Positions 5,368-21,687 of a DNA stretch of 52,497 bases are shown in pieces. Positions within the stretch are counted from its first letter, which is position 1, and the number at the start of each line of letters is the position of its first letter. The notes beneath the pieces are model-generated. The model was not told the DNA's origin and did no database searches. It was given only the letters and a program-made list of their open reading frames with translations. The position numbers were made by a program, and so were the translations under genes. This DNA is from an uncultured Opitutaceae bacterium (GTDB lineage: Bacteria; Verrucomicrobiota; Verrucomicrobiia; Opitutales; Opitutaceae): the NCBI GenBank assembly GCA_937902925.1, contig CALFNN010000095.1, forward strand, positions 1 to 52,497, read 5' to 3'.

Positions 5368-7128
5368 TTATGTCAGCAACGACACGCCCTTCGGCACGCG
5401 GACCACGGTGGTGCCGGCGATCTTGTCGTGCCAGGACTGCTTTTCGTTGTCGAAGGCAACCCAGATGAAGCCGAGGAACATGACCACGAGCGAAAGGAAG
5501 CAGCCAAGGGCGCGGGCGATGGCCGTGCCCCAGTCGATCGGGCGGTCGTCGAGCCGCACGACCCTCAGCCCGCAGATGATGCCGCCAATGGTCGAGCCCT
5601 TGAACTTCCACATGATGGCGCCGTAGGTCGCGAGGCCGAACAACGCCAGCTTCCCGCCGCCCGTCGTCAACGCGACGATGATGCCGAGGAGAATCACATC
5701 GAGGAGGAGCGCCGCCGTGCGGATCCAGAAGCCGGCTCGCGGCAGCGTCGAACCCGAGACCAGCGGAGGCGCCGCCACGCCGGCCGCGGTTTCGCCCGCC
5801 GTCATCCCCGGGAGCGTCCCGCCAGCCATTGCGCCGGCTGCCACGGGCACCACCCCGGCCGTCGGCGCCGATCGATCCCGCTTGGTCACGAGAATCAGCG
5901 TGTAGATCACGACGCCCATGCCGAGCCAGCCCAGCAGCTTGAACAACAGGATGCCGAGCACGGGCACGGTGTAGAGCAGGAGCATGAGCAGCCCGCCGAT
6001 CATCGTGCCGACCGCCGGGTGCGCCAGCGGCCCGTCGCCGAGCAGCTTGGTGAAACGGCGGCCGATCCAGGCCAGGATCACGACCTTCCCGAACAACGCC
6101 GCGACGAACATTCCCGCCGCAATGAACGGCACGAGAAAGATCCCGACGCCCGTCACGATCAGCAGCACGATCGCCACGGGCGAGAGCAGCACGGTCAGCA
6201 GCGCCGTGAGCAACGAGTAGCCCGGACGCGTCTCCAGAGTCTGGCCGCATTTTTCCACCCCGCGGCGGAACGCCAGGGCAATGAGCACGTAAAGTCCCAG
6301 CGCGACAAAGCCGACCATCCACGCCCACGCCAGGCCCGGCTTGAAGGCGAGCAGCCGGCCGTAGAACAGGCACTCGTAAAACCAGGAACGCAACCAGCCG
6401 ACGTCGCCAAAAAGCCCGGGCAGCGCCACGTTGCTCACGTCGCCGTGGACGACGGCCTTCGGATCGCGGGTCAGCGTGCCTCCGACCACGACCACATCGC
6501 CACCCACGTCCGCCTCGGGCCCGAGTTCGACGTTGCCGAGCACGGCCACGACCGTGTCGCCCACCTTGCCGTTCACATAGGTGCTGCCGAGCACGGCGAC
6601 GGCGGAGTCGCCCACCGGACCGTTGGCCCGCGCGTCGCCGAGGACCGAGACGATTGCATCGCCCACCTCGCCGTCGCTCGTCGCCGAGCCAAACACGGCC
6701 ACGACCGCATCGGCCGCCTCGTCTTTCGCAAGGTGCACATCGTGGCCCACGGCAATACGCTCGTCGCCACTGCTGTGGCGCCGCGGGGCGGAGGCGTCCT
6801 TGCTCCCCGCCGGCGCTGTCTTGCGGCTCGATTCGACCGGTTGGTCGAGCCGGCGCATCTCCGGCGCGGCGGCGGATGCCGGTTCCACGGCGGGCGCCGG
6901 CTTCGGGGCTTCAACCTTCTCGGAAACCACGGCGGTCGCCGGGGCCGCAACGGGCGCAGTCGCTGCCGCGGGTGCGGGTGCCGCCGCCGGTTCGACGGGC
7001 GGGACGGGGCCTTGACCGGAGGGCGTGGCCGGGGCCGGCGGCTTGTCTTGGGCCAGCGCGGCCCGGGTCAGCGTGAAAAAGAGCGCGACCGCGGCGCCGA
7101 GAAAGAGATGGCGAAAGGAGGTTTTCAT
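5368..7128 (-). CDS. Beta-repeat / multi-span membrane / RDD-domain fusion protein
   Basis: The product has 586 residues in distinct blocks. Residues 1-26 are a signal peptide ending ALAQ. Residues 27-120 are a Pro/Ala-rich low-complexity stalk. Residues 126-232 hold about five short repeats built around VAVLG and VGD (for example GSTYVNGKVGDTVVAVLG), the pattern of a bactofilin-like beta-helix. Residues 265-430 carry several hydrophobic membrane segments. Residues 470-586 are an RDD domain (GFWIRTAALLLDVILLG, then SWHDKIAGTTVV). The ATG at 7126-7128 is preferred over the upstream frame because it begins the signal peptide. It is the last gene of a unit with the anti-sigma-like gene (13 bases upstream) and the HDOD-sigma gene, so it is a candidate envelope sensor or effector of that sigma factor. 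The exact function is unknown. Confidence 0.8.
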   Translation of the reverse strand: MKTSFRHLFLGAAVALFFTLTRAALAQDKPPAPATPSGQGPVPPVEPAAAPAPAAATAPVAAPATAVVSEKVEAPKPAPAVEPASAAAPEMRRLDQPVESSRKTAPAGSKDASAPRRHSSGDERIAVGHDVHLAKDEAADAVVAVFGSATSDGEVGDAIVSVLGDARANGPVGDSAVAVLGSTYVNGKVGDTVVAVLGNVELGPEADVGGDVVVVGGTLTRDPKAVVHGDVSNVALPGLFGDVGWLRSWFYECLFYGRLLAFKPGLAWAWMVGFVALGLYVLIALAFRRGVEKCGQTLETRPGYSLLTALLTVLLSPVAIVLLIVTGVGIFLVPFIAAGMFVAALFGKVVILAWIGRRFTKLLGDGPLAHPAVGTMIGGLLMLLLYTVPVLGILLFKLLGWLGMGVVIYTLILVTKRDRSAPTAGVVPVAAGAMAGGTLPGMTAGETAAGVAAPPLVSGSTLPRAGFWIRTAALLLDVILLGIIVALTTGGGKLALFGLATYGAIMWKFKGSTIGGIICGLRVVRLDDRPIDWGTAIARALGCFLSLVVMFLGFIWVAFDNEKQSWHDKIAGTTVVRVPKGVSLLT

Positions 7129-7141
7129 GATGGGGCAGTTT

Positions 7142-7618
7142 TTAAAGTGAGCGGGAGGCGTAGAGCGTCCGGTAGGCGACGGCGCTGAGGCCGAAGAGCG
7201 CGACATACATCGCGCCCACGAACGCCAGCCCGCCGTAGAGCCAGAGCGGCGGGACGCTGCGGATGACCACGCTGCAGAAGTCGCCGAGGCCGCGGACCAG
7301 CGCGACGCCGCTCTCCAGCCAGGCGATCTGCGGCGCGAAGGCGGTCGTGAATTGCACGGTGTCGAAACCGCCCATCACCCAAACCGCCGCCATCAACGCG
7401 ACTTTGGCCACGCCCGCGGAGCCGATCAGGAACGCGCACCGCACCGGCAGCGGCCATTGCGTGTAGCTCTGGCGCCACCACGGCAGCGCGGCGCGGCGTT
7501 CGAGTTCGGCCATCACACGGGCCTCGAGCGTGCCGGGGGCGCGGCGCGACGGCAGGTCGCGGAGCGTCTCGTGAATGAAGCGCTCGAGTTTTTGTTCGTG
7601 GTCGGGTGACGGGTTCAT
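7142..7618 (-). CDS. Putative anti-sigma-factor-like membrane protein
   Basis: The product has 158 residues. The first 45 are soluble and charged (an LERFIHETLRDLPSRRAP-type helix, then LEARVMAELERR), followed by ALPWWRQ and about three hydrophobic membrane segments between residues 55 and 150. The layout of a small N-terminal cytoplasmic helix bundle plus membrane spans, encoded right after an ECF sigma factor, is that of an anti-sigma factor. There is no zinc-binding His-x3-Cys-x2-Cys motif, so it is not a canonical ZAS protein. It starts 7 bases after the sigma gene's stop and ends 13 bases before the beta-repeat/RDD gene, which indicates one operon. The anti-sigma role is inferred from context and shape only. 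Confidence 0.65.
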   Translation of the reverse strand: MNPSPDHEQKLERFIHETLRDLPSRRAPGTLEARVMAELERRAALPWWRQSYTQWPLPVRCAFLIGSAGVAKVALMAAVWVMGGFDTVQFTTAFAPQIAWLESGVALVRGLGDFCSVVIRSVPPLWLYGGLAFVGAMYVALFGLSAVAYRTLYASRSL

Positions 7619-7625
7619 GGCCGGT

Positions 7626-9194
7626 TCAAGGTTCGAGGGTTTCGCGCCCGGCGGCGCTGCGCTGGAGGATTTTGGCCAGCGCGGCGCGGGCGCGGAGAAT
7701 ATCGGTTTTCACCTTGGCGAGGGAAACGTGGAGCTTCCGGGCGATCTCCTCGTAAGGCAGGTCTTCAAAATGATAGAGCACGAGCGGCACCCGCTGGTGC
7801 TCGGGGAGTTGCTCGAGGGCGTGCTCCACGAGCGCGCGCCGCTCGCCGGCATCCATCCCGGCAAAAAACGCGTCGGGCGCGGCAAACTCGACCGCGGGCT
7901 CGTCACGCTCCGCCCCGGCGTCGTCGGCGCGGCGGAACTCCGAGAAGAACTTCCACCGGTTGCGGTAACGCGAGAGGTGGTTGAGGGAGAGGTTGGTCGC
8001 GACCGTCTTCAACCAGCCTCCGGCAGTCGGGCTCGTGCTCAGGGTCTCGAAGTGCTGGTGGGCTTTCAGGAAGACTTCCTGGGAGATATCCTCCGCCTGC
8101 GCCTCGTTGTTGGTCAGGCGGGCGGCGGTGGCGAAGACCATGTCCTGGTAGGCGCGCATGAACGTCGTAAAATCGGACGGCGGCGCTATGGCCGGGGTTG
8201 CGGTTGGCACGGGAGTTTCATCGTTCGCCTGCACAACACGCACCTGGAGCGGAAAGTTGCTGGAATCCGGGGCCATCGCCCCATGCGGCGCCTCGGCGGC
8301 CGGTTCCGGCGGCGGCGTCCCGGCGGCCTCCGCCGCCTCATCCGGCTCGGGTTCGCCTCGCAACCGGCGTTTGAACGCCACGAAGGCTTTCCGCGCCCGT
8401 TCGCCCGCCGCCCGGAATTTCGCCTCGGTCAGCCCGAGCGTCTCGATTTTCCAGAGGCTGCTGTCCCAGCGGCGCGACTCCCCGGGCAGGCCGTAACCGT
8501 TGTCGGCGACCAACCCGCCGGCGAGGTTGAGGAGACATGCGAGTTCATGCCCAAGGTCGGCGGAGCGCAGCATGTATTGGTTGCGCACCGCCTCGACGAT
8601 CTCGGCGGGAAACTTCCACTCCCCCAGCACCATGGCGGCCACTTCGGAACTCGGAAACCCGAAGAGCCGCGCTTCCCACGTCAGGTAGTCGTCGTCCCGC
8701 ACCGGGTGGTAAGACTCGACGTTGCCGTAGCGGTCGGCCAGCCGGTCCAGGACGAGAAGGCCCAGCGGTCGCATCAGGCCCGCGGTGTAGGCGCTGCGGG
8801 CGTCGAGCCCGCATTCCGTGGCGAGTTGCTCGCAGACGAGCGCGGTGTGGAGCATGTGTTCGCGCAGTTCCTCCGCCTCCACCCCGTAATAGGCGAGCGC
8901 CCGGTCGGCCAGATGCGCGGTCGCCACGTCGCCGACGATGCGAAAAATCTCCTGAAAACCCACGCGCGCCACCGCCTCCTCCACCGAGCCGGTCCGCTGC
9001 TCGCCGCCGTAGACGACGCTGTTGCCGATACGAATGATGTGGGCCGCCAGCGTCGCGTCCCGCTTGATCAGCTCCCCAATCTTGTGGAGTCCGCTGTTCG
9101 TGTCGCGCAGGAGACCATCGAGCTCGGAGAACACCCGCGGGGCCGGGGGCAGCGATCGGGCGATCTCGAGGATTCTCTCACGGGTGGCGGCCAT
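7626..9194 (-). CDS. HDOD domain fused to ECF-type sigma factor
   Basis: This is one uninterrupted frame of 522 residues. Residues about 10-230 form an HDOD domain closely resembling the stand-alone copy at 19252-20112 (IARSLPPAPRVFSELDGLL, VGFQEIFRIVG). The HD position of metal phosphohydrolases reads AGLMRPLG instead of a LLHDIG type, so it is not catalytic. Residues about 285-340 are a Pro/Ala/Glu linker. Residues 341-522 are a sigma-70 ECF module: region 2 with DISQEVFLKAHQHF and GWLKTVATNLSLNHL, and region 4 with LPEHQRVPLVLYHFEDLPYEEIA. ATG 9194 was chosen because it aligns with the paralogue's start; a longer start at 9236 exists. It heads an operon with an anti-sigma-like and a beta-repeat/RDD gene. 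The inference is a sigma factor carrying its own signalling or oligomerisation domain. Confidence 0.9.
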   Translation of the reverse strand: MAATRERILEIARSLPPAPRVFSELDGLLRDTNSGLHKIGELIKRDATLAAHIIRIGNSVVYGGEQRTGSVEEAVARVGFQEIFRIVGDVATAHLADRALAYYGVEAEELREHMLHTALVCEQLATECGLDARSAYTAGLMRPLGLLVLDRLADRYGNVESYHPVRDDDYLTWEARLFGFPSSEVAAMVLGEWKFPAEIVEAVRNQYMLRSADLGHELACLLNLAGGLVADNGYGLPGESRRWDSSLWKIETLGLTEAKFRAAGERARKAFVAFKRRLRGEPEPDEAAEAAGTPPPEPAAEAPHGAMAPDSSNFPLQVRVVQANDETPVPTATPAIAPPSDFTTFMRAYQDMVFATAARLTNNEAQAEDISQEVFLKAHQHFETLSTSPTAGGWLKTVATNLSLNHLSRYRNRWKFFSEFRRADDAGAERDEPAVEFAAPDAFFAGMDAGERRALVEHALEQLPEHQRVPLVLYHFEDLPYEEIARKLHVSLAKVKTDILRARAALAKILQRSAAGRETLEP

Positions 9195-12936: not shown

Positions 12937-13249
12937 CGTTGGGGCAGGCCTTCCGGGGTTTGGGACTGGATGCTCGTGCATCGTGCCCTTCCACTCGCCG
13001 CTGGCGCCGACCCACGCGTGGTCGCAGCCGCGGAAGGCCCCGAACGGGAAGTGGTAAGCACAGGGGTCATGATTTTGCCAGTTGTCGCAGCAACCATACC
13101 AAATGCGCATGTTCCGCCCCGAGCGCAAGCGGCCCGCGCCAACTAACACTTAGCCAACCAATAAGCGGCCGTTCATCCGGCGGTTGGCGGCCTGCCGGCC
13201 CTTGCCACTATCCGGCCGCCGGCGACACTCTGGCCAACAAAACAACCTC
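12937..13249. other. Divergent intergenic region between KdpE-like gene and putA
   Basis: This stretch of about 313 bases must contain the promoters of two divergent genes. The segment 13142-13165 (aactaacacttagccaacca) is AT-richer than its surroundings and is the best place for a putA promoter. No operator dyad, RNA gene or extra coding frame could be supported. If the regulator starts at its upstream ATG (12981), the gap shrinks to 268 bases. Confidence 0.35.
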
Positions 13250-16200
13250 ATGTCTTCCTTTCTTCCCCCCGATCCGGTGCTGGAAAAACGCATCCGTGAA
13301 ATCGGCGAAAAACTTTTCGCCGCCATGGATGTCGCCCCCAGCCCGGGCATTTTCTCCAAGAAGGGCGCCCACGCCCGCGTGATGGAATGGTCGATGAAGG
13401 ATCCTGCCTTCAAGACCCAACTCTTTCGCTTCGTCGACGTCCTCCCGTCGCTCGACTCGTCCGCCGAGATCGTCCGCCATCTGCAGGAATACCTCGGCGA
13501 CAAGGCCGTCGAACTGAACCCCGCGATGAAGGTCGGGCTCGCCGCCTCATCCTTCGCGCCCGGGCTCGTCGCCGGGCCGGTCAAGGCCAACGTCGTCTCG
13601 ATGGCCGCCCAGTTCGTCGCCGGCGAGACCCCCGACGACCTCGTCAAGCAGCTCCGCAAAAACGCGCAGCTCGGCCTCGCCACCACCATCGACCTCCTCG
13701 GCGAAACCGTCGTCAGCGATGCCGAGGCCGATGTGTTTCTCCAGCGCAACCTCGACGTGCTCGACACCGTCGCCGTCGCGCTGGCCAAAGACCCGGCGCC
13801 CGGTTTCAGCGATGTCGGCCCGCGCGGTCCCCTGCCCCGGCTCAACCTCTCGGTCAAGGTCTCCGCCCTCACGCCCGACGTTCATCCGGCCGACCCGGAG
13901 AACTCCATCGTCGCCCTGAAAGAGCGTCTCCGCCCGATCCTCCGCCGTGCCGCCGAGGTTGGCGCGCTGATCAACTTCGACATGGAGAGCTACAAGTTCA
14001 AGGACCTCACGCTCGCGCTCTTCAAATCGATCTTCGAGGAACCCGAATTCCGAGAAAAGCCCGCCGCGGGCATCGCGCTCCAGGCTTATCTCCGCGACTG
14101 CGAACGCGACCTCCGCGACCTCGTCGCCTGGGCCCGCACGCACCATCGGCCGCTCAACGTCCGCCTCGTGAAGGGCGCCTATTGGGACTACGAGACGATC
14201 CTGGCGCAACAACGCGAATGGCCGGTTCCCGTCTGGTCAAAAAAGCCCGAGAGCGACGCAAACTACGAAAAGCTCTCCCTGTTCCTCCTGGAGAACGCGG
14301 ATGTCATCACCCCGAATTTTGCCTCGCACAACGTCCGCTCGTGCGCCCACGCGATCGCGCAGGCCGAGCGCCTCGGCATCGATCCGCGCGCCTACGAATT
14401 CCAGGCGCTCTACGGGATGGCCGACGAGTTGAAGCGCGCGCTGCTGCAAAGCGGCCATCGCGTGCGCGAGTATTGCGCGATTGGCGAGTTGCTCCCCGGC
14501 ATGGCCTACCTCGTCCGCCGGCTGCTCGAAAATACGAGCAACGAGGGCTTCCTCCGCCAAAAAAACATGGGCGAGGCGACGCGGGACGAGTTGCTCAGGA
14601 ATCCGGCGGATCTGGTAGGGCCCGACCTTCGGGCGGGTCGCTCCGACGCGATGAATCCAACGGCCCGCCCGGAGGTCGGGTCCTACCCTTTCCGCAACGC
14701 CCCCAACACCGACTTCACCCTCGCCGCCGCCCGCGAAAAACAGCGCGCCGCCTTCACCGCCGTCACCGCCCGACTCGGCCAGCGTCACCCGCTCGTCATC
14801 GGCGGCAAAAAAATCTCCGATCGCGAATTCGTCGCGTCCGTCAATCCCGCCCGCCCCTCGCAGATCGTCGGCCACTGGGCTCGCGCCACCATCAAGGACG
14901 CCGATGCCGCCGTCGCGGCCGCCCGCGCCGCGTTTCCCGCGTGGCGCGCCACGCCCGCCGGCGACCGCGCCAAAATCCTCGAGCGCGCTGCCGACCTCAT
15001 GGAGGCGCGTCGCTTCGACCTCAACGCGCTCCTCATCCTCGAGGCTGCGAAACCGTGGCTCGAAGCCGACGCGGACCTCTCCGAGGCGATCGATTTCTGC
15101 CGCTTCTATGCCGTCGAGATGCGCCGGCTCGACCGTCCGCAGGTCACGCAGGCCGTGCCCGGCGAACGCTGCACGCAGGTGTTCACGCCACGCGGCGTCG
15201 GCGTCGCCATCGCCCCGTGGAATTTTCCACTCGCGATCCTGACCGGCCTCGTCGTCGCGCCGCTCGTCGCCGGCAACGCCGTCATCATGAAACCCGCCGA
15301 GCAAACCACGATCATCGGCGCGGCGTTGATGGACGTCCTCACCGAGGCCGGCATCCCCGCGGGAGTCGTGAATTTCCTCCCCGGCTTCGGCGAGGACATC
15401 GGCGCGCACCTCGTCGCGCACCCACAGGTCGACTTCATCGCCTTCACCGGCTCGCGCGCCGTCGGCACCAAAATCTGGGAGACCGCCGGCCACACCTCAC
15501 CCGGTCAGGCCAATCTGAAAAAAGTCGTCTGCGAAATGGGCGGCAAGAACGCGCTCATCGTCGACGACGATGCCGACCTCGATGAGGCGATCCCCGCCGC
15601 GCTCTACAGCGCGTTCGGGTTCAGCGGACAGAAATGCTCCGCGCTCTCGCGGCTCATCGTGCTCGACGGCATTCACGACGAGTTCGTCGCGCGCTTCGTT
15701 TCCGCGTGTGCCAACCTCCCTGTGGGCGATCCCGCCCAGCCCGGCACCGTCGTCTGCCCCGTGATCGACGCCGAGGCGCAGAAGAAAATCCTCGCGATGA
15801 TCGAGCAGGGCAAACGCGAGGCGAAGCTCGCCTTCCAGGCGACGCTCTCTCCCGAACTACTCGCCAGCGGCGGCTACTTTGTCCCGCCGACCGTCTTCAC
15901 CGACGCGAAGCCCGACGCCACGATCGCCCGTGAGGAAATCTTCGGGCCGGTCGTGGCGATCCTGCGCGCGAAGAATCTCGGCGACGCGATCGCCCTCTTG
16001 AATTCGACCGACTACGCGCTGACCGGCGGCCTGTTTTCGCGGAGCCCGCACGCCCTCGAACGCGCGCAGCGTGAATTGATGTGCGGCAACCTCTATCTCA
16101 ACCGCGGCATCACCGGCGCCATCGTCGAGCGCCATCCATTTGGCGGTTTCAAGATGTCCGGCGGCGGCACGAAAGCCGGTGGCCGGGGCTACCTCGAAAA

Positions 16201-16279
16201 CTTTCTGTTCCCGCGCGTCATCGCCGAGAACGTCATGCGCCGTGGTTTCACGCCGCCAGAGGAGCGGACGTCAACCTGA
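13250..16279 (+). CDS. putA: Bifunctional proline dehydrogenase / P5C dehydrogenase PutA
   Basis: The product (1009 residues) oxidises proline to glutamate in two steps. The N-terminal proline dehydrogenase barrel spans roughly residues 130-440 (NLSVKVSAL, VRLVKGAYWDYE, ASHNVRS). The C-terminal aldehyde dehydrogenase spans about 510-990, with PWNFPLAI, catalytic Glu762 in VCEMGGKN and catalytic Cys796 in GFSGQKCSAL. There is no N-terminal ribbon-helix-helix, so it is not the autoregulating enterobacterial type. Translation starts at ATG 13250 (MSSFLPPDP). Unusually, residues about 455-480, between the two enzymes, are encoded by a palindromic repeat (14614-14687). The gene is divergent from the KdpE-like regulator. 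No proline transporter gene is adjacent. Confidence 0.96.
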   Translation: MSSFLPPDPVLEKRIREIGEKLFAAMDVAPSPGIFSKKGAHARVMEWSMKDPAFKTQLFRFVDVLPSLDSSAEIVRHLQEYLGDKAVELNPAMKVGLAASSFAPGLVAGPVKANVVSMAAQFVAGETPDDLVKQLRKNAQLGLATTIDLLGETVVSDAEADVFLQRNLDVLDTVAVALAKDPAPGFSDVGPRGPLPRLNLSVKVSALTPDVHPADPENSIVALKERLRPILRRAAEVGALINFDMESYKFKDLTLALFKSIFEEPEFREKPAAGIALQAYLRDCERDLRDLVAWARTHHRPLNVRLVKGAYWDYETILAQQREWPVPVWSKKPESDANYEKLSLFLLENADVITPNFASHNVRSCAHAIAQAERLGIDPRAYEFQALYGMADELKRALLQSGHRVREYCAIGELLPGMAYLVRRLLENTSNEGFLRQKNMGEATRDELLRNPADLVGPDLRAGRSDAMNPTARPEVGSYPFRNAPNTDFTLAAAREKQRAAFTAVTARLGQRHPLVIGGKKISDREFVASVNPARPSQIVGHWARATIKDADAAVAAARAAFPAWRATPAGDRAKILERAADLMEARRFDLNALLILEAAKPWLEADADLSEAIDFCRFYAVEMRRLDRPQVTQAVPGERCTQVFTPRGVGVAIAPWNFPLAILTGLVVAPLVAGNAVIMKPAEQTTIIGAALMDVLTEAGIPAGVVNFLPGFGEDIGAHLVAHPQVDFIAFTGSRAVGTKIWETAGHTSPGQANLKKVVCEMGGKNALIVDDDADLDEAIPAALYSAFGFSGQKCSALSRLIVLDGIHDEFVARFVSACANLPVGDPAQPGTVVCPVIDAEAQKKILAMIEQGKREAKLAFQATLSPELLASGGYFVPPTVFTDAKPDATIAREEIFGPVVAILRAKNLGDAIALLNSTDYALTGGLFSRSPHALERAQRELMCGNLYLNRGITGAIVERHPFGGFKMSGGGTKAGGRGYLENFLFPRVIAENVMRRGFTPPEERTST
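14614..14687. repeat. Palindromic repeat inserted in frame within putA
   Basis: The left arm 14614-14640 and right arm 14661-14687 are 27 bases each and pair over their full length; 24 positions are Watson-Crick and the other three can form G-U pairs in RNA. The loop is 20 bases (14641-14660). The arms begin GGTAGGGCCCGACC and end GGTCGGGTCCTACC. The element keeps the putA frame open and adds about 25 residues (VGPDLRAGRSDAMNPTARP and following) in the linker between the two enzyme domains. This is a REP-like mobile-repeat layout inside a gene. Confidence 0.85.
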
Positions 16280-16940: not shown

Positions 16941-17771
16941 TCAAACCGTGGAGGCGCAGAGCAACACGTAATGCGCCCGCGCGCGGGCCGCACATTCTTC
17001 CAAATCGGCTTCCGAGACCCCTGCGAGCGTGAGCTTCGCGGGACTGACGATCCAGTTGCCCGTCTCACCCGGCAGATCGAGGCCGAAGCGCGCGGCGACG
17101 CCGCAGGCCAGATTGAGCACGCACGCGCCAATGTTCGACTCGGCATCGGCCAGCGGATCGCAATGACCGCGGACCGATTCCACGAGCTCTGCGGGAAAGC
17201 GCCAGTGCTCGAGCAACAGCGTCGTCACCTCGGCGGCTGTGACGCCGGCGGCGGTCTTTTCCCATTCGGCGATGAGCGGCCACTCGGCTTCACCGGGATA
17301 AACCCGGCCCTCCACCGCGCCATCGATGATCACGCGACCGAGCGTGCGCAGCAGGCCTGCCGTGTAGGCAAGCCCGGGATCGCGACCCGCCCGGGCCGCG
17401 AGCACTTCGGCCGCCGCCGCCGTGGCGACCGAGTTTTCCCACAGCCGGATGGCCTTCAGGCCGTAGGCCGTGAGATCGCCCTGGCAAACCTGCTGGGTGG
17501 CGGCGAGCCCGACGAGCCGGTAAATCTCGCGAAAGCCCACGCGGCCGACCGCCGATTCCAGCGAGTCGTTCTGCTCCCGGAGGCCAAACAACACGCTGTT
17601 GCTCATCCGGACGACATGAAAGGTGAGCGCGGGATCGAGGCGGATCATCTGGACGATCTCCTCCATCTCCGTGTCGGTGTCGTTCAGCAACTCCCGCAGC
17701 CGGCCGAACGTGGCGGCGGCGGGCGCGAGTCTGTTGCCGAGCGTGATGATCGTTTCGCGGTTAAGAGCCAT
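16941..17771 (-). CDS. HDOD domain protein (copy 2)
   Basis: This is a cytoplasmic HDOD-domain protein of 276 residues. It aligns along its length with the HDOD part of the sigma fusion (7626-9194) and with the copy at 19252-20112: an N-terminal helix with GNRLAPAAATFGRLRELL, DPALTFHVVRMSNSVLFG, VGRVGFREIYRLVG, and a C-terminal tail with NLACGVAARFGLDLPGETG. The position that would hold the metal-binding HD pair reads AGLLRTLG, so it is predicted to be non-enzymatic. HDOD proteins usually act as signalling scaffolds. ATG 17771 is preferred to an upstream start at 17807. It is the last gene in a minus-strand run that includes another HDOD gene and an ECF sigma factor. Confidence 0.87.
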   Translation of the reverse strand: MALNRETIITLGNRLAPAAATFGRLRELLNDTDTEMEEIVQMIRLDPALTFHVVRMSNSVLFGLREQNDSLESAVGRVGFREIYRLVGLAATQQVCQGDLTAYGLKAIRLWENSVATAAAAEVLAARAGRDPGLAYTAGLLRTLGRVIIDGAVEGRVYPGEAEWPLIAEWEKTAAGVTAAEVTTLLLEHWRFPAELVESVRGHCDPLADAESNIGACVLNLACGVAARFGLDLPGETGNWIVSPAKLTLAGVSEADLEECAARARAHYVLLCASTV

Positions 17772-17881
17772 CGGAGTGCATTGAGCGCATCTCCTCACTC
17801 GGCACAACCGGACGGGAGGCTAAGTGAAAAATTCGGCAAAACCGTGGCGCTCCCGCCCGGCGGACGGCTGCCCGCCACCCG

Positions 17882-19251: not shown

Positions 19252-20112
19252 TTATCCCGCGAGCGCCGCGACGGCCGCATCAAACGCGTGGTTCGCCGCC
19301 GCCAGCGCCGGCTCGAGCTGGTCCTCCGTCAACCCGGCGCCCTGCAGTTTTTCCGGCGCGATCTCCCAGCAGCCGTTTTCCCCGATGAGGCTGCGGTTTT
19401 CCCGCTGCGTGAGGCTGCCGGCCACGTTGAGCAGGCAGGCGAGCTGACTCCCGCCATCGGTCGCCCGCGCGAGGTAATGCCGCCGCAGGGCATCGCCCAT
19501 CTCGCGCGGGAAACGCCATTCGGCAAGGATGAGGGCGGAAACCTCGCAGTTATCGACGCCGAACATGCCGCCCTCCCACGCGGAGTAAGTCGGCCAGCGC
19601 GAGGGCACGTAACGTTCGGTCCAGTGCAGGTGCCCGCGCCCGGCACGGTCGAGCACCATGATCCCAAGCGTGCGCATCAACCCCGCCGTGTAGGCGACAC
19701 GCGTGTCCGCGCCGGCCGCCCGCGCCAGCTCCTCGCAGGCAAACGCCCCGTGGAGCATGTTGTCGCGCAGCAGCTGGGCCGAAATGCCGTAGTGCTCGAG
19801 GGCCCGCTCCGAAAAACGCGCCGTCGTCGCCGTGCCCACCAGTTTCAAAATCTCGCCAAAGCCGACGCGGTTGACCGCCTCCTCGACCGACGCGATCTGG
19901 CCGCCGCCGCCGAACATCGCGCTGTTGCTGATCCGGACGATCCGTGCGGCGAGGGCGACGTCGCGCCGCAGCAGGGACGCGATCTCCTCGAGTTCGCTGT
20001 TCACGTCCTGCAGCAGGTCGCCCAACCCCGACAGCACCTGCAGGTCGGCGGGCAGCGAGCGGGCGATTTGGAAGAGCTTTTCACGGGAAAACGATGTGGC
20101 AACGGCGGGCAT
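19252..20112 (-). CDS. HDOD domain protein (copy 3)
   Basis: The product has 286 residues. It is the closest relative in the window of the HDOD half of the sigma fusion: both share IARSLP near residue 15, a DLLQDVNSEL-type helix, RISNSAMFGGG, SVEEAVNRVGFGEILKLVG, and a DNMLHGAFACEELA helix. The metal site position reads AGLMRTLG instead of an HD pair, so enzymatic activity is not expected. The start at 20110-20112 (MPAVATSF) matches the fusion's start. It lies 144 bases downstream of the ECF sigma factor gene with the membrane tail on the same strand. A role in intracellular signalling or sigma-factor control is inferred from neighbourhood and paralogy. Confidence 0.88.
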   Translation of the reverse strand: MPAVATSFSREKLFQIARSLPADLQVLSGLGDLLQDVNSELEEIASLLRRDVALAARIVRISNSAMFGGGGQIASVEEAVNRVGFGEILKLVGTATTARFSERALEHYGISAQLLRDNMLHGAFACEELARAAGADTRVAYTAGLMRTLGIMVLDRAGRGHLHWTERYVPSRWPTYSAWEGGMFGVDNCEVSALILAEWRFPREMGDALRRHYLARATDGGSQLACLLNVAGSLTQRENRSLIGENGCWEIAPEKLQGAGLTEDQLEPALAAANHAFDAAVAALAG

Positions 20113-20256
20113 GCCCCCTAGGTATCGGCACATGATGCCGGCCATGAAGCCGAGGTTTTGACCCCGGCAGGCACCCCGAAACGCCCGGCCGCCAAGCCCG
20201 GCTCCGACGAATCGCCGCGCCAGCCTTCACCGCGGCACGCGCGGCCGCTATACCAT

Positions 20257-21687
20257 CTACTTGTTCGCGGCCTTTTGAGCTTCGATTAATTCGACGAAGT
20301 CAGCGCCTTCCTGCGACGTGGCGAAATAGGGAATGATCGCCTCGATGTTCGCCGGCCCCTTCCCGTTGTTCGCCGCGCGGTAGGCTTCAAGCGCTTTGCG
20401 GGCCGAGGGGCTGAGCTTGATTTGGTTGTTGGGACGGCCGACGAAACGCTCGGCTAGCGAAAGCATGCGCGGACCGCTTGGCGCGGGACGATTGAAGGTC
20501 ACTGTTATGCCTTCGGGCGTTGTAACGACGAGCGGCTGGTCTGTTGTCATGGCGAGGGTCGAATAGCTTTCGCCGGCCACGGAGATGAGCCGCTTGATGA
20601 ATTTGTCCTCACCAACGAGCTCGTCGAGCGACGCGGGCGCGCGGCCATATTCCAGTTTGAAGCGATCGATCGAAGCGGCGATTTGCCGGAGGTTGGCGGT
20701 GACGCGCTCGATGACGAACTCCTTCTGGCGCGTCCGATCGGTGACCGAGGCGGTATTCGTCCCAGAAGATGGCCCGGCCTGCTTCGACTTGAGCAAGGCT
20801 ACTTCGCTCTCCAAAGCGGCAACCCCCTGTGCGGAACGCTTCGAGCGCTCCTGCTCGGCCCGAAGCTGCGTGCGCAGGTCGTCGCGGTCCACGGTGAGCG
20901 TGGCGAGTTCGGACTCGGCGCGGAAAGCGCGACTCCATTGGGAAAAAGTCGCGACGAGCGCCGCGAGTGCGACAGCGCCAACCATGGCCGTGGTTTTCAT
21001 GCTCATAAAAATTCCTCCGGTCACGAGTCCGCCCACACCGACGCCCGCGAGGGCGGCGCCGGTGATCGAAGTTGCGAGCCCCGCGGGCACGGTCGCGGAA
21101 GCCAGGTTGGCGAACGCGAACGCGAGCGCGGCACCGGTGGACTTTACCCCGCGCCGGGCGAGGGCGGCGCGCAGCTTTTCCAACGCGCGATCGATACGCA
21201 TCCGCGCGGCGTCCTCGGAGAGCCGCAACGCGGCGCCGATCTCGGCGAATGGACGATTTTCGAAATAACGGAGCAGCACGGCCTCGCGGTCGCGGTCGTC
21301 GAGTTCGTGGATCACGCCGTCGATCATCGGGCGAAGCCGTTCCCACTCGGTCGCGGGATCGGGGTCGGAGAGAAGCGCGTTCATCGTCGTGGCCTCCTGC
21401 TCGTAGTGCCGGCGGGAGAATTCGGCGCGCCGCGCTTTCGCCGCCGCAAAGCGCGTGCTCGTGTGCAGCCAACCCGCGAGCGTGGCGCGGCCCGTGAGCG
21501 ACGGCGCCTTGCACGCGAGGTCCGTGAACACCGCCTGCGCCACGTCCCCCGCCCGATGCGCGTCGCCGCCGAGCTGTCGCAACGCGGCGAAATACACGAG
21601 GTTCAGGTGGGAGCGCACCAATTCCGCAAACGCCGTCTCGGAGCGTTCCTCGACATAGCGTCGGAGCAGTTCGTTGTCGCCGTTCAT
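20257..21687 (-). CDS. ECF sigma factor with membrane and coiled-coil C-terminal extension
   Basis: The product has 476 residues. The first 175 form an ECF sigma factor: region 2 (LRRYVEERSETAFAELVRSH, AGDVAQAVFTDLA, GWLHTSTRFAA) and region 4 (LDDRDREAVLLRYFENRPFAE, LSEDAARMRIDRALEKLR). Residues about 180-250 are hydrophobic with two probable membrane spans separated by MKTTAMVG. Residues 255-310 form a heptad-like coiled coil, and residues 320-476 a globular end with NLRQIAASIDRFKLEYGRAP, reminiscent of pseudopilin-type helices. A sigma factor tethered to the membrane in the same chain would not need a separate anti-sigma factor. No anti-sigma gene is adjacent. It lies just downstream of a palindromic repeat. 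Confidence 0.87.
   Translation of the reverse strand: MNGDNELLRRYVEERSETAFAELVRSHLNLVYFAALRQLGGDAHRAGDVAQAVFTDLACKAPSLTGRATLAGWLHTSTRFAAAKARRAEFSRRHYEQEATTMNALLSDPDPATEWERLRPMIDGVIHELDDRDREAVLLRYFENRPFAEIGAALRLSEDAARMRIDRALEKLRAALARRGVKSTGAALAFAFANLASATVPAGLATSITGAALAGVGVGGLVTGGIFMSMKTTAMVGAVALAALVATFSQWSRAFRAESELATLTVDRDDLRTQLRAEQERSKRSAQGVAALESEVALLKSKQAGPSSGTNTASVTDRTRQKEFVIERVTANLRQIAASIDRFKLEYGRAPASLDELVGEDKFIKRLISVAGESYSTLAMTTDQPLVVTTPEGITVTFNRPAPSGPRMLSLAERFVGRPNNQIKLSPSARKALEAYRAANNGKGPANIEAIIPYFATSQEGADFVELIEAQKAANK

Follow-up and report, generated by a model that had tools for sequence, protein, structure and literature searches.

Organization of the locus

The window, i.e. the whole stretch of 52,497 nucleotides analysed here, contains a gene in which an HDOD domain precedes an ECF sigma factor in one open reading frame (Table 1). 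Translation of the minus strand from 9194 to 7626 yields 522 codons and a terminal stop without any internal stop, in agreement with the uninterrupted frame of 522 residues described in the initial annotation of this DNA, and identifies the minus strand as the coding strand.

Table 1. Coordinates of the fusion gene, its parts and neighbouring genes in the window
Feature	Position	Strand	Details
HDOD-ECF fusion gene	7626..9194	minus	522 aa, ATG start; open frame
HDOD domain, residues 15-207	8574..9152	minus	PF08668, E 4e-38
Pro/Ala-rich linker, residues ~282-340	8175..8351	minus	translation, in-frame comparison
ECF-type promoter-like element in the linker	8235..8260	minus	GCAAC(TTT) from 8260 down, CGTGTT 8240-8235
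Sigma-70 region 2, residues 346-411	7962..8159	minus	PF04542 Sigma70_r2, E 3.4e-13
Sigma-70 region 4, residues 455-506	7677..7832	minus	PF08281 Sigma70_r4_2, E 1.5e-15
P3, 158-aa membrane protein, candidate anti-sigma	7142..7618	minus	7 nt after the fusion gene
P4, 586-aa membrane protein, third operon gene	5368..7128	minus	PF06271 RDD, E 1.5e-17
Stand-alone HDOD paralogue, other clade	16941..17807	minus	clade also represented close to the ECF operon of several relatives
Stand-alone HDOD paralogue	19252..20145	minus	46% identical to the fused HDOD

Each of the three domains of the protein exceeds its curated Pfam cut-off, the HDOD match reaching 131.3 bits compared to a gathering score of 22.9 and covering positions 1-194 of the 196 in the profile. 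The Pfam borders are close to the HDOD domain at about residues 10-230 and the ECF module at residues 341-522 that had been proposed from the letters alone, and the profile search suggested as a check recognizes both parts. In the C-terminal half, regions σ2 and σ4 follow each other within about 180 residues, as in an ECF sigma factor, and the sigma70-ECF superfamily model scores 79.6 bits (cut-off 42.9). In structural terms, the HDOD domain is an additional in-frame domain ahead of σ2 and thus an N-terminal extension, connected by a linker in which Pro, Ala and Glu are abundant. In three other fused proteins scanned, HDOD, σ2 and σ4 likewise exceed the Pfam cut-offs within one frame.

The one-frame fusion of HDOD and ECF is genuine. 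A sequencing or assembly error joining two genes had been named as the finding that would overturn this, visible as a stop or frameshift near 8150-8300; none is present in the window, and six further genomes encode HDOD and ECF in one frame. The genome of the window consists of 105 contigs and the fused genomes are drafts with the exception of G003, which would leave room for an error. However, G003, a single contig, contains the full-length fusion as one frame of 528 aa with 65% identity, and five more genomes besides G003 show a one-frame fusion. In view of these six homologues an error was set aside as extremely improbable.

Situated downstream are the genes of a small membrane protein (P3) and an RDD membrane protein (P4), in the conserved order ECF, P3, P4. 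Among the 124 loci with at least 2.5 kb of sequence after the ECF gene, 119 of which belong to the family, P4 is found in all 124 and P3, always together with P4, in 123; the sole locus without P3 is L043, titled Acidobacteria. P3 is also found in all six fused loci that reach that far, the contig of fused L069 stopping 219 nt past the ECF match, short of P3. P4 is rich in repeats in its N-terminal half and carries an RDD domain at the C-terminus. By eye we took it to be bactofilin-like, a look not borne out by Pfam, which gives RDD alone above cut-off.

Class II anti-sigma domains of the CnrY type have a short cytosolic tail containing two short helices ahead of the membrane part. P3 has no match in Pfam or NCBIfam, and no known anti-sigma profile matched. 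Its N-terminal motif is invariant in six proteins whose record titles name three phyla, and is retained in the Acidobacteria loci L041 and L042, whereas the membrane part varies. The residues invariant across the six P3 proteins (M1, L11, R20, L22, A27, P28, T30, L31, R34, V35, P56, A62 and R150) are located mostly within the N-terminal tail, and mean column identity, determined from the 42 of 141 sequences that match the motif expression (the other 99 not being counted), is 0.66 in the first 45 columns compared to 0.48 elsewhere. A weak structural model of P3 (pLDDT 65, pTM 0.27) places helices at residues 5-20 and 31-43, followed by long helices at 57-83, 95-121 and 124-154. Conservation of the tail but not of the membrane part is as expected for a sigma-binding tail. 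In combination, layout, position, motif and predicted topology suggest that P3 is a membrane anti-sigma factor.

In P3 of L038 (10613-11203) the N-terminal motif was seen twice by eye, as ELEKFIHRELRALPPRKAPAGFEAR and QLEQFIHTTIRSLPNRRAPGTLEAR, suggestive of a duplication of the putative sigma-binding tail. By motif count, two copies are also present in L157 and L174.

Distribution of the fusion and histories of its two halves

The fusion is uncommon. HDOD and ECF share one open frame in 7 of the 138 family loci, namely in the window (genus g1) and in G003 (g4), G134 (g26), G095 (g59), G183 (g15), G131 (g17) and G006 (g7, with a longer linker). Genus g1 comprises one genome only. Both parts are full-length in all seven fusions; the frames of the six other genomes encode 516-672 aa, and their HDOD halves share 50-65% identity with that of the window. 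The survey of relatives proposed at the outset thus places the fusion in seven genera, most relatives having the ECF without HDOD. The loci derive from a search with P0002 against 252 genomes of the family, 135 of which gave a match at E <= 1e-75 among the five best candidates per genome. From these, 140 stretches were taken, including four ECF loci from outside the E <= 1e-75 list; 137 contain the ECF and make up the 138 loci together with the window, weaker ECF relatives in the family being left aside.

Outside the family, no match combining HDOD and ECF was found among three candidates per genome, neither in the 61 matching genomes (E <= 1e-40) of a class sample of 384 nor in a phylum sample of 387 genomes, where 25 matches at E <= 1e-60 all fall within the family. 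A pattern scan of one genome per species (84,980 species) retrieved six relatives, each matched in the ECF part only; all three scans are blind to an unrelated HDOD joined to an unrelated ECF.

In the ECF tree, the fused ECFs group with their own or neighbouring genera, L069 (g59) pairing with a g37 row; the ECF domain of the Lacunisphaera locus L038 is identical to a g37 row, a shared sequence by which the family is probably Opitutaceae, Verrucomicrobiota. A single clade of the seven fused ECF parts is rejected (p-AU 6.8e-64), and on this ground transfer of the whole fused gene between genera was discarded. The seven fused HDODs form one clade with moderate support (SH-aLRT 97; bootstrap/SH-aLRT of 86/95 in a second tree), close to g15 HDODs that stand alone; the comparison covers the HDODs in the fetched loci, not all HDODs of the genomes. 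In a 16-row tree that includes one very long row, the fused HDODs are not resolved as one clade. For groups chosen after the trees were seen, the HDOD tree rejects g1+g26 (p 0.004), though the ECF tree places g1 near g26, and also g1+g4+g7+g26 without g59 (p 0.021). These rejections speak against the whole gene having simply been inherited vertically. The ECF parts of fused L068 and non-fused L087 are very similar. Judged from the trees, the two halves seem to have different histories, with either one old fusion followed by many losses or one HDOD lineage that was attached several times.

A separate HDOD gene ends within 600 nt upstream of the ECF at five loci (L072, L121, L172, L192 and L194). 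No HDOD is found within this distance in the other 126 family loci, five of which (L092, L100, L134, L178 and L180) have less than 1 kb of upstream sequence. Such neighbours make it conceivable that an upstream HDOD gene simply lost its stop and ran into the ECF, the HDOD having no effect on the sigma factor, and the patchy occurrence of the fusion, missing from close relatives, would fit. Yet none of the five adjacent HDODs falls within the fused clade, the placement of L194 on its long branch being unsure, which also speaks against fusion of whichever HDOD adjoined. In seven genera, HDODs from a single clade are attached to this same ECF, with both parts full-length. A passive read-through of this kind is regarded as quite unlikely.

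A promoter-like element within the linker

Ahead of the start of non-fused ECF genes, the consensus TTTCTGC[GA]ACTTT is followed, at a spacing of 14 or 15 bases measured from its AC, by CGTGTT, with ATG or GTG about 6 nt later. The strict pattern is found in 92 of 107 canonical non-fused loci and missed in the other 15; a position weight matrix (PWM) was trained on 93 sites from those 92 loci. The spacer length changes the reading frame, which suggests that the DNA rather than the protein is conserved at the element. Form and spacing fit those of an autogenous ECF promoter, and the element is termed promoter-like here.

In all seven fusions the element, intact or decayed, is found in frame within the linker, 90 nt ahead of the FTTFM codons except in L073, where the distance is 141 nt. 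It attains PWM scores of 24.0 for the window and L067, 36.5 for L068, 17.7 for L069, 29.3 for L070, 16.3 for L071 and 20.4 for L073. Controls reach at best 4.1 in 60 random kilobases (independent bases with 66% G+C, not coding DNA) and 2.6 in the HDOD part and the 500 nt before. With the lower quartile of the training sites at 36.2, all fusions but L068 carry an element weaker than that of most non-fused loci. The window, L068 and L073 retain the exact -10 hexamer, L070 deviates from it by one base, and in L067, L069 and L071 it is degenerate; the window is missed by the strict pattern because its -35 has an A where the consensus has a T. Among six fused genes, DNA identity is 0.25-0.41 before -100, 0.75 at -90, 0.33 at -80 and 0.67-0.71 from -70 to -40. 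These two peaks are promoter-like, and the same shape is seen in the non-fused sets.

A search of five genomes for the exact element pattern gave two matches, of which that in G021 lies at the ECF operon and that in G020 elsewhere, and none in G000, G003 and G159; with a control pattern matching once in G021, no regulon could be derived from these five genomes. A scan for sigma-70 promoters between 7000 and 9500 found none.

At the position of the old ECF start the codon is GCG in the window and L067, ACG in L068, L070 and L073, and GTG in L069 and L071. Hence, ATG/GTG is gone in five of seven fusions, and another in-frame GTG follows a few codons further in all seven. A codon other than ATG/GTG is also present there in 17 non-fused loci, 11 from g7, four from g26 and two from g15. 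Each of these genera includes a fused member, and 39 non-fused loci belong to such genera, loci of the same genus not being independent. In genera without a fused member, such a codon is found in none of 90 readable loci, L202 being set apart (CAC by script, but ATG two codons earlier) and L204-L206 and L040-L043 left out as unreadable. L039, outside the grouped genera, has TCA and counts against a strict rule. Of the loci that the script could not read, inspection by eye found no start there in L201 and an ATG close by in L165, L176 and L179.

The 17 non-fused loci without the usual ATG/GTG (L072, L079, L087, L089, L091, L092, L093, L099, L101, L106, L108, L115, L117, L121, L123, L131 and L151) have the promoter-like element, and their ECF perhaps starts at an upstream ATG or a later in-frame GTG. 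In L133 a stop (GTG TAA) occurs within a few codons of the usual ECF ATG, so that the ECF must start later there; a short upstream ORF is possible.

Local DNA alignments of fused with non-fused loci resume at -98 (L068/L087), -91 (L067/L114), -93 (L071/L180), -97 (L071/L192), -110 (window/L076), -93 (window/L096) and -126 (L070/L131), in these seven pairs near the -35 edge, and later, at -56 and -25, in L069/L166 and L073/L091. Similarity of the HDODs stops between -205 and -142 in six fusions, and already at -418 in L073. Resumption does not mark the fusion point, as identity before -100 is poor among non-fused loci too, and shows only that the element was kept whole. The alignments place the join somewhere between the end of HDOD similarity and the element. 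Most telling is the pair L068/L087, whose amt-like neighbours align at 85%; between L087 and L089, both non-fused, the alignment extends upstream to -234. Upstream neighbours are common to several pairs, with amt in L068/L087 and putA near L067, L071 and L073. Pair alignments together with the shared neighbours indicate that the HDOD segment sits between upstream neighbour and element and reads through the element into the sigma gene.

If the element within the linker still worked, two products could arise, an ECF-only protein from an internal start and the long protein from an upstream promoter, with HDOD tuning the basal level instead of sensing on the same molecule. The element is in register in all seven linkers with PWM scores of 16-36 compared to at most 2.6 in the HDOD part and the 500 nt before, its -10 is exact or nearly so in four loci, and GTG codons are available at the old start in two fusions and further in frame in all. 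On the other hand, the -10 is degenerate in the remaining three, the window deviates at the -35, the old ATG/GTG is lost in five of seven, the fused genes may have lacked the time to lose the element, and the random controls were independent bases. On balance the two-product reading appears rather unlikely.

A possible signal input and comparison with known systems

HDOD domains have lost the catalytic His-Asp of HD phosphohydrolases. In the fusion protein this position seems, by eye, to be R142-P143 within GLMRPLG, and R142 is invariant in four HDODs. An AlphaFold2 model of the HDOD part is composed of helices (pTM 0.75) and is unreliable at residues 16-78 (pLDDT < 50). Its best Foldseek match is SadB (9qzk, TM 0.57 by query length); by sequence, 3m1t is the best solved HDOD, with a better score than SadB. 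GGDEF matches number 0-3 per genome in the ten genomes searched, with at least one in nine of them, one in G000 and none in the fused genome G131, which makes c-di-GMP a doubtful ligand of the fused HDOD. HDOD matches in G000 number 13, two of them weak.

The stand-alone paralogue at 19252-20145 lies about 110 nt after a second sigma-70-type gene on the same strand (20257-21687, coding for 476 aa including a long C-terminal extension), so that the window holds a second HDOD beside an ECF-like gene (19252-21687). Positions 16941-17807 and 13184-16279 concern an HDOD clade that in several relatives is represented within a few kb of the ECF operon, frequently beside a divergent putA-like gene, which suggests an old HDOD-rich neighbourhood.

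In the parent module, probably a canonical pairing of an autoregulated ECF and a membrane anti-sigma factor, the short cytosolic N-terminal helices of P3 would hold the ECF until an envelope signal causes P3 to release it, and the freed ECF would transcribe its own operon. The contrast drawn in the initial annotation with ECF factors under separate anti-sigma proteins does not hold for this operon, which has the candidate anti-sigma factor P3, a protein present in every one of the six fused loci that extend to it. Since P3 is still present, the HDOD part more probably supplies a further input than takes the place of the anti-sigma factor. In the fused form, HDOD might add a cytosolic input in cis through self-association, a partner or a ligand, and might raise or lower the amount of sigma factor able to reach RNA polymerase, so that two signals would meet on one chain. 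The HDOD part may switch the sigma factor by oligomerisation or ligand binding, as initially suggested. To our knowledge, no direct contact between an HDOD domain and a sigma factor has been described. The fusion is uncommon and close relatives manage without HDOD (L068 compared to L087), which counts against an added input. We consider the chances evenly balanced that HDOD serves as an additional cytosolic input to an otherwise canonical ECF module, acting on sigma availability.

A bolder version of the added-input reading, which we judge unlikely, is that one HDOD lineage is a plug-in input attached in several genera to the same ECF operon, each time joined in frame ahead of the autogenous ECF promoter, the promoter becoming the linker and, where intact, yielding two sigma forms. 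Loci with an intact element would then produce a long HDOD-gated sigma factor and a short self-activated one.

The initial annotation was aware of no characterised protein of this design, and no publication on an HDOD-ECF fusion was found by us either, a mention in the main ECF classification papers being possible; the word HDOD is absent from the main text of PMC8103513 and PMC8999054. As far as the available text of these papers goes, N-terminal extensions are known from the former groups ECF87-ECF89 of Planctomycetes and from members of ECF36 that carry DUF2275 and membrane helices at the N-terminus (PMC8103513, PMC8999054), and are thought to regulate the ECF, with no mechanistic information (PMC8103513). 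Thus, ECFs with N-terminal extensions are already known, and HDOD as such an extension appears to be new. The fusion bears on how N-terminal extensions control ECFs, which the text available to us states to be mechanistically unstudied (PMC8103513), and offers a concrete route of bacterial domain fusion, in which a promoter region is read through and retained as linker. Since this sigma factor occurs naturally in fused and unfused pairs whose ECF parts closely resemble each other (e.g. G134 and G139), the effect of adding HDOD is open to a direct test.

Like ECF87-ECF89 and ECF36, the protein carries an extra N-terminal part on a σ2-σ4 ECF; unlike in these groups, HDOD forms the extension and a candidate membrane anti-sigma factor is still encoded separately. 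The C-terminal domain of ECF41 is of the SnoaL type. ECF41 and SigJ are described, in the part of the source available, as having a fused C-terminal regulatory domain (PMC3426412); they share with the fusion the combination of ECF and regulatory domain in one chain, whereas the protein end and the domain differ.

For SadB of Pseudomonas (YbaK-like plus HDOD), the accessible text reports binding of c-di-GMP with a Kd of 0.23 uM and activation of algU transcription, describes the HDOD domain as non-catalytic and calls the mechanistic role of HDOD unestablished (PMC6543031). SadB, the best fold match of the HDOD model, likewise places an HDOD in a pathway to an ECF (AlgU), but is a separate protein that acts on algU transcription and not on AlgU protein; moreover, it binds c-di-GMP, whereas the fused genome G131 has no GGDEF match. 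Non-fused ECF-P3-P4 operons of the family and of Acidobacteria share with the fused loci an orthologous ECF (52-84% identity in the ECF part) and the same downstream genes, and within the family also the promoter-like element. They differ from the fused loci by the absence of HDOD and, in most cases, by an ATG or GTG just after the element.
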